Assembly (NCBI GenBank): GCA_016840185.1
Contig: JAEOSV010000259.1
Span: 1-5,178, forward strand
Origin: Candidatus Hermodarchaeota archaeon
Lineage (GTDB): Archaea > Asgardarchaeota > Hermodarchaeia > Hermodarchaeales > Hermodarchaeaceae
Direction: 5' to 3'
DNA: 5,178 bases
Shown: in pieces, positions 216-5,178 of the stretch
Layout: each line of letters opens with the position of its first letter
How positions within the stretch are numbered: position 1 is the first letter of the stretch
The notes under the pieces: generated by a model
Database searches by the model: none
What the model was told of the DNA's origin: nothing
The model's input: only the letters and a program-made list of their open reading frames with translations
Position numbers and translations under genes: made by a program

Positions 216-740
216 ATGATAAACCTAAGCCAAAGTGTTGGGGCAGACGTCTTGAGCAACCCTGATAAGATTCTTACATTGGCTAAGATTCTACAGACTC
301 ACCCTGACGAACAGGAACGGGCACGTGCCGTCACCGAACTCGGTGCCATTCGTACCGGAACAGCCTACGAAGCCTTGGGCATTGCCATGCACGACAACTC
401 AGCCCTTGTCCGCAAAGCCGTTGTGAAAGCCTTTGAAGAAGTCGGTGCCGATTGGGTGCTAGCTCCGGTCCTTATTCGCCTTCGGAGCAACGATGCCGAT
501 GCCCGAATGGTTGCCTGCCGCGAACTGGGACGTCATGATGACACCGAAGCTGTCCTCCCCCTGATCGATCGGCTTAGCGATTCCAACCTCCAAGTCCGCA
601 TCGCTGCAGCGCATTCACTTGGTCAACTTTGTGACCCAAGAGCAATCCCGCACCTTCAGGATTTACGACGCCGCGATTGGAATCCCTCACTCCGACATAC
701 AATCGATCGTGCCTTGTTCCAACTACGCCAATCAAAATAA
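216..740 (+). CDS. HEAT-repeat protein (PBS-lyase-like HEAT repeats)
   Basis: The 174-residue product is made almost wholly of about five alpha-helical repeats of roughly 31 residues: about 19-49, 50-81, 82-112, 113-143 and 144-172. The signature is an Asp, then a V-R/A-R pair and an Ala-rich helix ending in L-G. Examples are D60/V65-R66/A68, D95/A96-R97 with L104-G105, and D122/V127-R128/A130-A131 with L135-G136. Proteins of this type are soluble scaffolds that bind other proteins. The family name comes from phycobilin lyases, but nothing here points to bilin chemistry. No signal peptide or membrane segment is visible. The ATG at 216 is the obvious start, although no ribosome binding site precedes it, so the mRNA may use a short or SD-less leader. 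A T6 tract lies nine bases after the stop. Third codon positions are strongly G/C-rich (GCC, GTC, CTC, CGC), unlike the AT-rich genes to the right. The partner is unknown. Confidence 0.9.
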   Translation: MINLSQSVGADVLSNPDKILTLAKILQTHPDEQERARAVTELGAIRTGTAYEALGIAMHDNSALVRKAVVKAFEEVGADWVLAPVLIRLRSNDADARMVACRELGRHDDTEAVLPLIDRLSDSNLQVRIAAAHSLGQLCDPRAIPHLQDLRRRDWNPSLRHTIDRALFQLRQSK

Positions 741-1979: not shown

Positions 1980-2031
1980 ACAACCAAGAGTAATCCGTGA
2001 TTTCATGTCGAAAACCCCACCTAATAGTTCG

Positions 2032-2084
2032 TTGTACGACTGACGCCTTTTACTCACAAACCCAAGATTTGTTGAACTTTTTTC
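2032..2084 (+). repeat. Dispersed intergenic repeat, copy A
   Basis: This copy is 53 bases and pairs with copy C over its full length, with about five mismatches and a one-base gap. It carries the 19-base core TTTTACTCACAAACCCAAG at 2048-2066 exactly, then a diverged ATTTGTT where the other copies have CCTTACT, then GAACTTTTTTC. It shares the left arm TTGTACGAC with copy C. It lies 92-144 bases past the stop of the tandem-GNAT gene and about 170 bases before the methyltransferase start, both on the minus strand. Confidence 0.9.
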
Positions 2085-2102
2085 TTCTCATAATGAACTA
2101 GA

Positions 2103-2134
2103 GTTTCCTTTCTTTTTTTTAACCAGAAAGAAAC
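2103..2134 (-). terminator. Imperfect hairpin downstream of the tandem-GNAT stop
   Basis: GTTTC-C-TTTCT (2103-2113, one bulged C) pairs with AGAAAGAAAC (2125-2134) around an AT-rich loop that contains most of a T8 run (2113-2120). It starts about 40 bases past the GNAT stop codon. On the minus strand the pyrimidine-rich arm comes first and is T-rich (GTTTCTTTCT), so it may act as a 3'-end signal for that gene. Its T8 reads as a terminator on the plus strand, where there is no gene. Confidence 0.3.
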
Positions 2135-2175
2135 ATGTAATTAAAATTTGAATTCTCATAGAGTTAAACAAGAAG

Positions 2176-3072
2176 TCAGAATTTCTTGGTTAGGTAGTAC
2201 TCCTTAACATTATTCGGATACGCGTCTGAAAAACCAAGAATTTCATACCCCTGACTCCTCAAGAACTCCAGATTCTGGAATGAGAAGCATGCAACCTGTC
2301 CAGATAAACATCTCATCCCTTTAGCTAGAGTTTCAGCATGCATCAATAGATCCATTCCGTATCCCATTCCACGATGGTTCTCATCAACCCAGAATTTCGC
2401 TATGTTCAATATCCCAAGTATTGTATAACCACTTATTCCTCCAATCACTTCTCCCTCATTCCGCTTTATCACAAAACAGTAGTCGGATTGGGGGTGTTCC
2501 TTCAGAAAACTTTGTGCATGCTTGTCAAAGTTCCGACCAAGCCCTGAACGAACGGTTTTGATCTCTTCTTCTGAAGGGTTTGATGTGATTGTAAACCGGT
2601 TTGGGTCTACCTTTGGTGTTGCCCTGTCATCCAAAGAGGCGAGGCGGGTCATCAAGACATATTCCTTGATCCCACTATGATAGCCATCATAGGTCACGAT
2701 GAGGTCGTAACCAACTGCCTGATAGAATTGTGGTGCTTGCCAAGAGAATGTGTACACATGGGATGAGATGCACCCAATCTCCTTTGCCAATTTCTGCGCT
2801 TCTATAACGAGGTCTTTTCCATATCCTAACCCTCGATACTTTTCATCGACCCATAGCACCTCGAGATATTGGCTCCAGTAGAGCGTACTTGTGATGATGC
2901 CACCAACGACTTTTCCCTCGTGATCTTTCAAGACCAAATTATGCCAGGGTTGTGGGCTGTTGAACTCCCAATTGGTCTTTTCCATGTTGTAGGACTCCAG
3001 ACCTTGCTGGAACTTCTTCACTTCTTCATCAGTCGGGTCGCTAATGACTGCATAACGATGTGATCCACTCAT
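2176..3072 (-). CDS. Tandem-duplicated GNAT-family N-acetyltransferase
   Basis: The 298-residue protein consists of two copies of one GNAT domain: about 7-143, then a charged linker, then about 160-298. Twice the usual length fits an internal duplication. Each half has the acetyl-CoA pyrophosphate loop, R80-G-L-G-Y-G85 and R234-G-M-G-Y-G239, preceded by the matching strands LWVDE and FWVDE. GNAT enzymes move an acetyl group from acetyl-CoA to an amine; the substrate here cannot be read. The C-terminal F-Y-x-x-x-G-Y motif is intact in the first half (F116-Y117, G121-Y122), where Tyr is the usual general acid. In the second half it is F270-L271 with G275-Y276, so that Tyr is lost and the second site may be impaired or structural. 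The ATG start is backed by AGGT at 3079-3082, six bases upstream, and by a TATA box at about 3122-3129. No membrane segment is seen. The small opposite-strand reading at 2869-3063 is a shadow. Confidence 0.92.
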   Translation of the reverse strand: MSGSHRYAVISDPTDEEVKKFQQGLESYNMEKTNWEFNSPQPWHNLVLKDHEGKVVGGIITSTLYWSQYLEVLWVDEKYRGLGYGKDLVIEAQKLAKEIGCISSHVYTFSWQAPQFYQAVGYDLIVTYDGYHSGIKEYVLMTRLASLDDRATPKVDPNRFTITSNPSEEEIKTVRSGLGRNFDKHAQSFLKEHPQSDYCFVIKRNEGEVIGGISGYTILGILNIAKFWVDENHRGMGYGMDLLMHAETLAKGMRCLSGQVACFSFQNLEFLRSQGYEILGFSDAYPNNVKEYYLTKKF

Positions 3073-3078
3073 TTGAAG

Positions 3079-3082
3079 ACCT
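3079..3082 (-). promoter_or_regulatory. Shine-Dalgarno site of the tandem-GNAT gene
   Basis: AGGT on the minus strand ends six bases before the ATG at 3072. This is good spacing for pairing with the 3' end of 16S rRNA and it fixes the start codon. Confidence 0.5.
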
Positions 3083-3121
3083 GCTCACTTAACATGGAAG
3101 TCAACTCTGTATCATTAATAT

Positions 3122-3135
3122 CTTTTAAACCACGC
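3122..3135 (-). promoter_or_regulatory. TATA-like promoter of the tandem-GNAT gene
   Basis: TTTAAAAG (minus strand, 3129 down to 3122), preceded by GCGTGG, lies about 50 bases before the ATG. A start site 25 bases further on would give a leader of nearly 30 bases that includes the AGGT ribosome binding site. The position is consistent, but the box is not a perfect consensus. Confidence 0.4.
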
Positions 3136-3164
3136 TAATTTGAAAAATCCCTTAGGATAACAAG

Positions 3165-3226
3165 TATTCTGTTCTAAAATAGAATATCATCATTTGATGA
3201 TTAACTGCTAATGATTGATAATCAAT
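3165..3226. promoter_or_regulatory. Cluster of three adjacent palindromes upstream of the tandem-GNAT promoter
   Basis: Three inverted repeats follow one another. TATTCT/AGAATA spans 3165-3170 and 3181-3186, with TTCT/AGAA nested inside. ATCATCA-TT-TGATGAT spans 3186-3201. ATTGAT-A-ATCAAT spans 3214-3226. They begin about 35 bases upstream of the GNAT TATA box, where an activator or repressor could bind. AT-rich spacers produce palindromes by chance, but three perfect ones in about 60 bases is notable. Confidence 0.35.
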
Positions 3227-3320
3227 GGACATCCGATATGCTTTTACTCACAAACCCAAGCCTTACTAAACTTTTTCTTGGTTTTACTTCATAGTTTCCC
3301 CGAATATCCTTAACTGCTAA
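3201..3320 (+). repeat. 11-base direct repeat flanking repeat copy B
   Basis: TTAACTGCTAA occurs exactly at 3201-3211 and 3310-3320, on either side of copy B. Each is preceded by GAATATC (3182-3188 and 3302-3308); the left one is separated from it by a palindrome and the right one by a single base. The pairing of both words suggests a real duplication rather than chance. It may be a target-site duplication or the residue of a local rearrangement. Confidence 0.45.
3241..3277 (+). repeat. Dispersed intergenic repeat, copy B
   Basis: This copy carries the 19-base core TTTTACTCACAAACCCAAG exactly (3242-3260), followed by CCTTACTAAACTTTTTC. That matches copy C except for one G-to-A change and one T fewer. 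The left arm (TTGTACGAC...) of copies A and C is missing or badly diverged here. The copy lies about 170 bases before the tandem-GNAT start and about 250 bases past the stop of the six-helix gene. Confidence 0.9.
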
Positions 3321-3450
3321 ACCTATCGAAGAAGCTCCGAGGTCCATGGTTTTATCCCTTAAAGCCATTTCTTATCTACTTTATTCACTAATCAACAAGT
3401 TACCAATGGAGTATCGTTTAACTTGTTTACGAAATAGCGTATGTGTCTTC

Positions 3451-3476
3451 CCCTGGGAACCACGTCCCGAACAGGG
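3451..3476 (-). terminator. GC-rich hairpin downstream of the six-helix gene
   Basis: On the minus strand CCCTG, a UUC bulge and GGGAC, a three-base loop GTG, then GTTCC and CAGGG form a ten-pair stem with one G-U pair. In the plus-strand sense one pair becomes A-C, so the fold favours the transcript of the six-helix gene, whose stop lies about 50 bases upstream. It could protect or end the 3' end. It lacks a following T tract. Confidence 0.35.
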
Positions 3477-3524
3477 TATAATGACAGAGTTCCAATTTGT
3501 GATTTGGATTTCTAATAGAGGTGT

Positions 3525-4103
3525 CTATTTTCGAAGTGCTATGACAAAGTAAAGGAAACCAAAGAGATAGACAATAGCGACTCCCATTGACCAGGCCTGA
3601 ATCCAGATTGAGGGAGGTAATCCGTAGTTCATAAACTGAATTATGAGATTAACAAATCCCCAAATCATGAAAAGGATTCCAGTTATCATTGCGATGAGTC
3701 CAATGTCGTCACGTGTTAGCCAGATAGTATAGCCAAGTACTACGTAAATGATGAGATAGAAAATCCAGAAGAGCCAACTGAGGTAGAGGTTAGCTGTTGC
3801 AAAGTCTAAAACTGTGAGAAGTAGTGGAAACAGAATATCGAGTAGAATTAATGCGACGAGAATCTGTAGTACCAATAGGAGTATCGCTGCGATTAGCGGT
3901 AGAAAATTACCAGTTTCTCTGTAGAGACCGAATATTGCCAATACAAGGAAAACTAGTGCGAGAACTGCAACCCAATCCAGAATGAGAACAGGGGGAAGCG
4001 CATAGATCAGCAGATAGACGTTGTAGAAAAACAAAATGCTAAGAATTAAACACCCGATTGCACCTAGTGCAAATAAGACATTGTTTAGAGTATCTTTACC
4101 CAT
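3525..4103 (-). CDS. Six-helix integral membrane protein, unknown function
   Basis: The 192-residue product is strongly hydrophobic, with about six membrane spans at 9-34, 39-60, 68-98 (long), 106-128, 134-158 and 170-190. It has short polar loops (YRETGN near 61-66, TRDD at 130-133) and ends in LRK. There is no signal peptide cleavage site and no charged residue pattern typical of a known transporter, so no function is offered. It resembles the small unassigned multi-pass proteins common in archaeal genomes. The start is the ATG at 4103, preceded after a seven-base spacer by GGTGA, a good Shine-Dalgarno sequence. An upstream in-frame TTG at 4121 would add six residues (MFGEHT) but would translate across that site, so I reject it. 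The gene ends with TAG at 3525-3527. It stands alone, with its own TATA/BRE-like promoter and spacers of more than 430 bases on each side. Codons are AT-rich. Confidence 0.85.
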   Translation of the reverse strand: MGKDTLNNVLFALGAIGCLILSILFFYNVYLLIYALPPVLILDWVAVLALVFLVLAIFGLYRETGNFLPLIAAILLLVLQILVALILLDILFPLLLTVLDFATANLYLSWLFWIFYLIIYVVLGYTIWLTRDDIGLIAMITGILFMIWGFVNLIIQFMNYGLPPSIWIQAWSMGVAIVYLFGFLYFVIALRK

Positions 4104-4169
4104 GGTGTGTTCACCAAACAAATACTGGTTAGTGTGTAAGGGAAACCCCTTGAGCTAAACTACTATAAA

Positions 4170-4183
4170 ATATTTAATTCGAA
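4170..4183 (-). promoter_or_regulatory. TATA/BRE promoter of the six-helix gene
   Basis: On the minus strand TTCGAA (4183-4178), a BRE-like purine-containing element, runs straight into TTAAATAT (4177-4170), a near-consensus archaeal TATA box. A second AT run, TTTTATAG, follows. Initiation 25 bases downstream would give a leader of about 45 bases that ends with the GGTGA site. An eight-base palindrome GGGTACCC (4194-4201) lies ten bases further upstream and could be an operator. Confidence 0.5.
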
Positions 4184-4437
4184 GTATATGTATGGGTACC
4201 CGTTGATATTTTCTAAACAGAATACTAGGTGTAAATATATCAAAATGAAACGAAGTGACTAATCCTTTGAAATTTGAAAGAACACGAATGGGTTTAATCC
4301 ATATGAAACACTCAACTTACGACCGAGATGTTGTTCTAAAATTAGACCGAAAATGATCACATATCGTACTGGTCATCGCCTTAATAACGAGGTGCGTTGA
4401 TAACAGGAATAAAGACGCCTAATATGCCTAATTCCTT

Positions 4438-4491
4438 TTGTACGACCGACGCCTTTTTACTCACAAACCCAAGCCTTACTGAACTTTTTTC
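4438..4491 (+). repeat. Dispersed intergenic repeat, copy C (most complete)
   Basis: This is the reference copy. TTGTACGAC (4438-4446) is shared with copy A. The 19-base core at 4455-4473 is identical to copies A and B. The CCTTACTGAACTTTTTTC end (4474-4491) is shared with copy B and partly with A and D. Beyond it, AGAAAAAGCTGT (from 4494) resembles AGAAAAAGTTGT after copy D, so the repeat may extend to about 4506. It starts about 70 bases past the stop of the surface-protein remnant. Read on the minus strand it contains an open reading FSKAWVCE followed by TAA, seen likewise in copy B. Confidence 0.92.
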
Positions 4492-4557
4492 CCAGAAAAA
4501 GCTGTAACGAATCATTATCAGAAGACAGTATCGACACACGAGCCCTGTTCTTCGGTG

Positions 4558-4824
4558 TTATTCGCCTCGTTGTCTGAGAAACCAAACAACGACAACAATG
4601 ACAATTCCCACAACAACGATTGCTACGATAACTAATAACCACTCGACAGGAAATGGAATTATGGGGGTAAGGACGGGTTCTTGTCGGGCGAAGTAGATAT
4701 CATGGTCAACACCATTGCGACCATCGGTCCAGACGATGCACATGTCACCATTTGGTGCCGGACGCATGCAGAAATAGTCACCCGGTCGGTCGAAGTATAA
4801 TGGGAAGCCTACTTCAGTAATCCG
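4558..4824 (-). pseudogene. C-terminal remnant of a cell-surface sialidase/BNR-type repeat protein with membrane anchor
   Basis: An open frame runs from 4824, just after an in-frame TAA at 4825-4827, to TAA 4558-4560. Its only ATG (4765-4767) lies inside a conserved stretch: the residues before it (FPLYFDRPGDYFC) continue naturally into MRPAPNGD. The motif VWTDGRNGVDHDIYFAR matches the repeated VW-D-R-G--DIYFAR unit of sialidase-like beta-propeller surface proteins. It is followed by a Pro-rich spacer, one very hydrophobic helix (VEWLLVIVAIVVVGIVIVVVVWFL) and the basic end RQRGE, so the product would be anchored with its N-terminal part outside. Such proteins normally have hundreds of residues and a signal peptide; here the N-terminal part is missing and no start lies upstream. 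I therefore read it as a decayed gene. A gene finder might call 4558-4767 as a 69-residue protein. A GC-rich hairpin and repeat copy D lie right at the broken end. The alternative is one frameshift in a gene whose upstream part is elsewhere. Confidence 0.65.
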
Positions 4825-4828
4825 TTAT

Positions 4829-4850
4829 GTGGCGAAGGGGCACTCGCCAC
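4829..4850. other. GC-rich hairpin at the broken end of the surface-protein remnant
   Basis: GTGGCGA (4829-4835) and TCGCCAC (4844-4850) are perfect complements around an eight-base loop AGGGGCAC. This is the most GC-rich inverted repeat in an AT-rich spacer. It starts two bases beyond the in-frame stop that ends the remnant's open frame. It may mark a rearrangement junction or be a structured leader element. Confidence 0.4.
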
Positions 4851-4865
4851 GAACACCAAAAACAC

Positions 4866-4899
4866 GACTTACAAAACCAAGCCTTTCTGAAATTCTTTC
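4866..4899 (+). repeat. Dispersed intergenic repeat, copy D (diverged)
   Basis: Over 34 bases it matches copy C (4458-4491) at 28 positions without gaps, including the run CCAAGCCTT. The following AGAAAAAGTTGT (4906-4917) also resembles the sequence after copy C. The orientation is the same as in the other copies. It lies between the surface-protein remnant and the divergent GNAT gene. A small hairpin, TTCTT/AAGAA, sits at its right end (about 4898-4909). Confidence 0.65.
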
Positions 4900-4994
4900 T
4901 TCTGAAGAAAAAGTTGTTGCCTAAAAAAATGTGCAGATTACACTGATTTTTTTGAAGGCAAAAATCCATAAACCCCGAATCATCTACAGCTTGC

Positions 4995-5178
4995 ATGCAA
5001 TTCTATCCTCAAAATGCGGCTGTTCCAAGAGAACTGCGAACGGAGGAATTACATATACGTCCTCTTAGAGTGAGTGATGCAGAGATTGACTATGCAGCAG
5101 TGATGGATAGTAAATCCATGCTACGGATAATGAGTCAGAGTACATGGCCATCAGATGATTTCACCTTAGAGATGAATA
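4995..5178 (+). CDS. GNAT-family N-acetyltransferase, N-terminal part (3' end outside window)
   Basis: From ATG 4995 an uninterrupted frame of 61 codons runs to the end of the window. The frame upstream is closed by TGA 4953-4955 and has no other start. The residues follow a known GNAT N-terminus: P-R-E-L-R-T-E-E-L-H-I-R-P-L (about 11-24), then V-S-D-A-E-I-D-Y-A-A-V-M (about 26-37), then S-T-W-P-S-D-D-F-T-L-E-M-N (about 49-61). In the family the first two form strand 1 and helix 1, and W-P-x-D-D/E-F-T-L-E-x-N leads into helix 2. The acetyl-CoA loop would lie beyond the window edge, so catalysis cannot be checked. It is a different GNAT subfamily from the tandem protein at 2176-3072. No Shine-Dalgarno sequence precedes the ATG. 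The start codon sits in the centre of the palindrome TTGCATGCAA (4991-5000), and an AT run at about 4920-4930 is a weak TATA candidate. The gene diverges from the surface-protein remnant. Confidence 0.8.
   Translation, partial: MQFYPQNAAVPRELRTEELHIRPLRVSDAEIDYAAVMDSKSMLRIMSQSTWPSDDFTLEMN

Follow-up and report, generated by a model that had tools for sequence, protein, structure and literature searches.

Junction sites of a possible integron-like gene-cassette array in Hermodarchaeia

Introduction

Asgard archaea are the nearest relatives of eukaryotes known among prokaryotes, and little is settled about the way in which they acquire foreign genes. Integrons have been reported as enriched in Asgard metagenome-assembled genomes (MAGs) (PMC9668308). 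Aloposons and related elements are large Asgard transposons that carry giant genes and integrate at tRNA sites (PMC8813620; the words "cassette" and "integron" are absent from its main text). Here we examine a stretch of 5,178 nucleotides (nt) from a Candidatus Hermodarchaeota archaeon (contig JAEOSV010000259.1 of assembly GCA_016840185.1), called the window throughout, in which a short conserved repeat recurs between genes. The reading that we prefer, and to which we give about as much belief as doubt, is that Hermodarchaeia have an integron-like chromosomal gene-cassette array in which these repeats serve as junction sites without being attC sites.

The loci that carry this repeat share much with integron arrays. 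Mostly one-gene units stand in tandem, the sites point one way, unit order is variable, units are common across genomes, the genes are accessory, and some units have no gene. In contrast to integron arrays, the site is conserved over ~60 nt with neither a common hairpin nor RYYYAAC/GTTRRRY cores, genes are found in both directions, there is no linked integrase gene, and conservation extends to both sides of the junction. The likeness to Aloposons and other Asgard mobile elements is that all are mobile DNA in Asgard archaea. IS200/IS605 and IS91/ISCR elements are oriented, with one precise and one loose end. Our sites are likewise oriented, and the units, with their irregular downstream edge, would fit such a loose end. 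They differ from these elements in having no common subterminal hairpin, and Y1 transposase, the only family of this comparison that was scanned, occurs in one of the eight genomes of the class.

Results

A 19-base word, TTTTACTCACAAACCCAAG, is identical at three places in the window, 2048-2066, 3242-3260 and 4455-4473, always on the + strand. Three matches were reached in 0 of 200 dinucleotide shuffles of the window (mean 0.01 expected), which confirms what an initial annotation of this DNA had reported. The longer similarity that it described also holds. Copies A and C are alike over ~54 nt (2032-2084 versus 4438-4491, 88.9% identity), the similarity of copy B spans about 35 nt, and a diverged fourth copy, D (4863-4897), is 71% identical to copy B. 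A model built from 27 copies, D included, gives copy D 33.1 bits (E 5e-9). The same annotation placed every copy in a spacer of a minus-strand gene run. This is right for A to C and wrong for D, because D precedes a plus-strand gene: it sits 104 nt 5' of an acetyltransferase start (4995), with a minus-strand open reading frame (ORF) on its other side.

Aligned at ACTCACA, the left halves of the sites fall into type L1 (GTACGACCGACGCCTTTTT), type L2 (GACATCCGATACGCTTTT) and singletons. R1 (AACCCAAGCCTTACTGAACTTTTTTC), with variants, is the prevailing right half. Site A (2030..2086, +) joins an L1 left half (TTGTACGACTGACGCCTTTT) to R1 at the core ACTCACA (2052-2058). Site B (3224..3279, +) joins an L2 left half (GGACATCCGATATGCTTTT) to R1 at the same core (3246-3252), and site C (4437..4493, +) again pairs L1 with R1 (core ACTCACA, 4459-4465). 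The core of site D (4863..4900, +) reads ACTTACA (4867-4873). Its right half is R1, and a small unit without a gene supplies the left half with its end.

The sites are confined to a few related genomes in the collections scanned. Exact matching of the degenerate core against GTDB genomes returned three stretches, all from Hermodarchaeota MAGs. Three Hermodarchaeia MAGs with sites, here G001, G002 and G003, supply the array stretches L021 to L026 (L021 from G001, L023 from G002). Scans of these genomes with up to three mismatches gave 6, 6 and 5 copies, and 0 with a reversed control pattern. Across the phylum, 94 of 227 Asgard genomes have some match; all 11 matches with zero or one mismatch lie in G001-G003, and those outside have two or three mismatches, as control columns also give. 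Searching related genomes, as the initial annotation had proposed, adds 23 copies, all in these three MAGs. With the four in the window they make 27 known sites, all on array contigs. A sequence model of the 27, whose own scores follow by construction since those sites built it, finds no match at E < 1e-3 in G001-G003 beyond those copies, and the strongest matches in the other five class genomes, two in G071, reach E 0.01-0.03. This whole-genome search scored 150 of 712-869 first-look candidates per genome, so weak sites could escape. The repeat had been said to match no described family, and for Rfam this stands: Rfam 15 gives the window two matches up to E 1, the best at 21.5 bits against a gathering score of 70. 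Our literature searches found no earlier description of these sites, which is no proof of absence. A virus-borne repeat was considered and rejected. In viral contigs the degenerate core matched one stretch (L071, 16.9 bits) and the L1-half pattern matched 12, and no viral stretch showed a second match in the model search.

Sites cluster on two contigs per genome (C275 and C337 in G001, C63 and C39 in G002, C16 and C37 in G003). Within each cluster site orientation is uniform, and gene direction is mixed. The end of C37 and the start of C16 in G003 are identical over 127 nt, and because of this exact overlap we take them as neighbours. The median spacing of sites is 1.1 kb (21 intervals), and a site is present in 24 of the 27 spacers that measure 60 nt or more. 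The genes on either side both lie on the site's strand at 13 sites and both on the opposite strand at 5; they diverge at 5 and converge at 3, and one site has no upstream gene on its contig. These counts use a gene list hand-picked from mechanical ORFs, with six dropped (window 3346-3552 and 4814-4996; L023 1901-2101; L025 5515-5718; L026 7329-7526 and 7499-7756). That no site lies inside a gene is true only after this choice, because two of the dropped ORFs overlap sites.

Left and right halves combine freely around TACTCACA. Pair identities of the two halves correlate at 0.13 over 435 pairs from 30 places, namely the 27 sites minus L023:16, whose left half is cut off, plus four places at the edges of a second repeat, E2 (L023:5951 stands a few bases out of register in this comparison). 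A like left half (at least 0.8) goes with an unlike right half (at most 0.5) in 14 pairs and the reverse is seen in 30; both halves are alike in only 6. For instance, window site C and L023:2836 have a common left half and TACTCACA, and are different afterwards. At the junction L023:5951, the joined halves have only ~5 nt in common. The site alignment has 0 consensus base pairs and no conserved fold, and 53 flanking stretches folded singly gave 3 with z <= -2 and no common shape. A structured RNA was rejected on these grounds, with no accepted Rfam match in the window, no consensus pairs and no shared fold.

Comparison of whole units places the breaks in homology at the core. G001 (L021:1174-2886) and G002 (L023:4245-5958) share an Acr3/ArsR unit at 80.6% identity. 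Its homology ends exactly at TAYTCAC, after which one copy goes on into R1 and the other into the E2 repeat. In the ICMT-like unit of G001 and G003, homology breaks at TACTYACA. Between the E2 repeats of G002 and G003, the 22 nt before the core are identical and divergence begins just after ACTCACAAAAT. E2 itself is a repeat of ~95 nt with four copies (L023:5945-6046, L023:6377-6476, L024:13974-14072 and L026:7295-7377). It stands at the HtrA-side border of the array in G002 and G003, and once within the second G002 array. It ends in TACTCACA, and beside HtrA a palindrome, TACTCACA-AAA-TGTGAGTA, follows. E2 is possibly a border attachment site or an operator.

Units also differ in order and in divergence. 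An ICMT unit comes before an esterase/530-aa (amino acid) gene pair in G003 and after it in G001, on the same strand throughout. The identities between these genomes are 91.8% for the esterase/530-aa pair, 84.2% for the HEAT/DinB flank and 81.1% for the ICMT unit. The acetyltransferase unit at the end of the window (4953-5178) is 97.3% identical over 226 nt to G002 (L023:1288-1513), where a copy of the site also precedes the gene. The HEAT gene of the window is 73.0% identical to that of G002, which lies in a 16-kb stretch without a model-detected site; in G067 the HEAT contig ends just after the gene.

Some units have relatives outside the class. For the GNAT acetyltransferase of unit A-B, DNA identity is 86.5% to G213 and 79.9% to G197, both outside the class. 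Its nearest relatives among the 227 Asgard genomes lie outside the class, within which only G002 has a match at E 1e-20 (43% aa identity), and in a large protein set its named close relatives are labelled Thorarchaeota or Promethearchaeota. The model detects no site at the G213 GNAT locus, which is near a homologue of the esterase unit. The acetyltransferase after site D is closest to G002, then to G204 (74% aa) and G185 (69% aa), with no other genome of the class at E 1e-15. Such similarities show lateral gene content, which may have moved in either direction.

Discussion

There is fairly good support for the view that the repeat stands at the joints of an oriented array whose units differ in order and exchange age. 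Judged from the sequences compared, the loci qualify as an oriented array of exchangeable gene units. In the mechanism that we propose, each unit would carry one or a few genes and end in a left half-site (...GCCTTTTTACTCACA). This half would meet the right half-site at TACTCACA, and the right half would lead into the next unit. Recombination at TACTCACA could then swap units, change their order and carry them from genome to genome, the orientation of the site being kept whatever the direction of the enclosed gene. We infer that a dedicated recombinase, acting in trans and cutting at TACTCACA, is the most likely mechanism. A bolder version is possible, though we lean against it: a Hermodarchaeia gene-cassette system independent of integrons, with a double-stranded site of ~60 nt, crossover at TACTCACA, a recombinase not yet recognised, genes also present in other Asgard classes taken up and shuffled in oriented arrays, gene-less units and E2 as the border site at HtrA.

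If the cassette-array reading is true, the site would offer a concrete sequence by which to trace the capture of genes and their exchange among Asgard classes, and its recombination could be tested. Integron-like arrays would then be seen to rest also on a site other than attC, and attC-based finders would probably overlook such arrays.

Several observations weigh against this reading. The downstream edge of the units is irregular: unit homology starts 43 to ~150 nt past the core, with no shared word, and the post-core stretch differs even where the acetyltransferase units of the window and G002 are 97.3% identical. A simple two-ended cassette does not predict such an edge. The stretch after R1 may be a module of its own, or genes may be captured behind R1 with loose edges. 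The break in the ICMT unit is less clean than that in Acr3/ArsR because the G003 right half keeps a weak likeness to R1, and it may be a decayed R1. Part of the independence of left and right halves reflects low variation on the right, where R1 dominates. Not every unit is younger than its flank, since the ICMT unit is less conserved between G001 and G003 than the HEAT/DinB flank. The G003 array rests on the 127-nt contig overlap, and misassembly is possible in MAG contigs. Among the few orthologous pairs that could be compared, none showed a clean empty site.

The search for a recombinase also counts against the same reading. No tyrosine recombinase (PF00589) lies on any array contig; because several of these contigs are short, a missing linked intI is weak evidence. 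No recombinase was found among the array-unit proteins scanned. G001, G002 and G003 have two tyrosine recombinases each, on non-array contigs, and array-less G067 has two as well. Serine recombinases are absent from the eight class genomes, and the one Y1 transposase-bearing genome among them is G001.

The main rival to a cassette array is that the repeat is kept for transcription, as a T-rich terminator, an insulator or a regulator site, and that shuffling is a by-product of ordinary or microhomology recombination. We consider this rather unlikely. Archaeal terminators carry T runs, and a run of at least five T lies at +23 to +36 of the core in 17 of the 27 sites. Site and downstream gene share a strand at 19 of the 27, and the palindrome that follows E2 beside HtrA looks like an operator. 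Yet the T-tract bears no constant relation to the 3' end of a gene in that gene's direction, site and downstream gene lie on opposite strands at the other 8, and all gene arrangements are seen, the convergent and divergent spacers included. A 3'-end or processing signal of leftward transcripts, as the initial annotation had suggested, is contradicted by this variety, and so is a promoter; the regulator site that it also offered may stand, in a position relative to genes that is not constant. No further strong site was found elsewhere in the three genomes, and homologous recombination does not explain L023:5951, because its halves have so little in common. A role as a short non-autonomous element, inserted in each spacer of a hot region as a miniature inverted-repeat transposable element (MITE) or a repetitive extragenic palindrome (REP) would be, is less probable still. 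Such elements are short, intergenic, repeated and non-coding, as the ~60-nt site is with its many copies and sequence subtypes, and E2, at ~95 nt, occurs four times in the stretches compared. Unlike them, the sites keep one orientation per array and break within the repeat, left halves occurring with other right halves and vice versa. The site alignment has no terminal inverted repeats or shared hairpin (inverted words are present in the separate E2 repeat). No scattered copies were found in the three genomes, and no empty orthologous site among the few comparable pairs. The mobility that had been proposed for the repeat is thereby borne out in another form, as a junction of mobile units; a little element that hops by itself it probably is not.

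Two further explanations carry little weight beside a cassette array. A canonical but integrase-less integron cluster (CALIN) whose attC sites are degenerate would account for mostly one-gene units, oriented sites and accessory genes, and the G001 bin does hold a partial integron integrase (L113:2-412). We hold it to be very improbable, since paired RYYYAAC/GTTRRRY cores occur in 0 of the 27 sites (0.21 expected from shuffles), GTTRRRY lies inside the conserved block of only one, and no attC-like pair is seen elsewhere in the window or in L021-L026. Nor do the sites have the conserved imperfect single-strand hairpin, or any conserved fold, of attC. The integrase fragment matches TIGR02249 at 148.8 bits over positions 1-125 of 315, where the whole-protein cut-off is 265. 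Its contig (C49, L113, 4.4 kb) also carries a phage-type integrase (L113:3411-4448) and has weak plasmid matches; it is probably bacterial contamination, and it bears on claims of archaeal integrons from MAGs. The initial annotation had lastly read a conserved minus-strand peptide end, FSKAWVCE-stop, in copies B and C and nearly in A. The frame is broken across the 27 copies, 5 having an in-frame stop within the eight residues and 7 no final stop. This count refutes the explanation, which is hardly credible.

Unit contents and neighbouring repeats

The units hold accessory genes. Their products include Acr3 arsenite efflux (TIGR00832, above cut-off) with ArsR, GNAT acetyltransferases, a carboxylesterase, an alcohol dehydrogenase, a tautomerase, PNPOx-like and rhodanese-like proteins, a PEMT/ICMT-like methyltransferase and membrane proteins without a family. 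In the window, unit A-B (2085..3223, -) carries the gene of a two-domain GNAT acetyltransferase (2176-3072). Unit B-C (3280..4436, -) encodes a membrane-type protein (3525-4121) of no assigned family, with one Pfam match, below cut-off. Unit C-D (4494..4824, -) has a short ORF (4558-4767) with a transmembrane-like stretch at its end, perhaps the remnant of a longer membrane-anchored protein. The remnant of a gene-less mini-unit follows (4825..4866, +). It contains a hairpin with a perfect 7-bp stem, GTGGCGA (4829-4835) pairing with TCGCCAC (4844-4850), and has a relative within L024:14948-15029 in the G002 array (76.8% over 82 nt). The unit after D (4901..5178, +) begins the acetyltransferase gene at 4995, which runs off the window. 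At the other end, the HEAT-repeat gene (216..740, +) is chromosomal, and its counterparts lie 0.9-3.7 kb from the nearest site beside the G001 and G003 arrays.

Other repeats were noted near these genes. A hydrolase-like stretch, 93.3% identical, ends two contigs of one MAG (L021:2-926 and L022:5094-6017), which may represent a duplicated unit or two strains. In G002, long genes have a repeat of 50-128 nt close to their 3' ends, and a relative is present in G003 (L107:7023-7150, L107:10734-10861, L025:7387-7503 and L131:7331-7381). On contig C112 of G213, a 74-nt repeat, 93% identical (L128:8370-8443 and 9512-9585) and with no further copy in the locus stretches compared, lies at the 3' ends of a pair of adjacent genes, one being the homologue of the esterase unit. 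Here another Asgard class might have an array-type repeat of a different kind.

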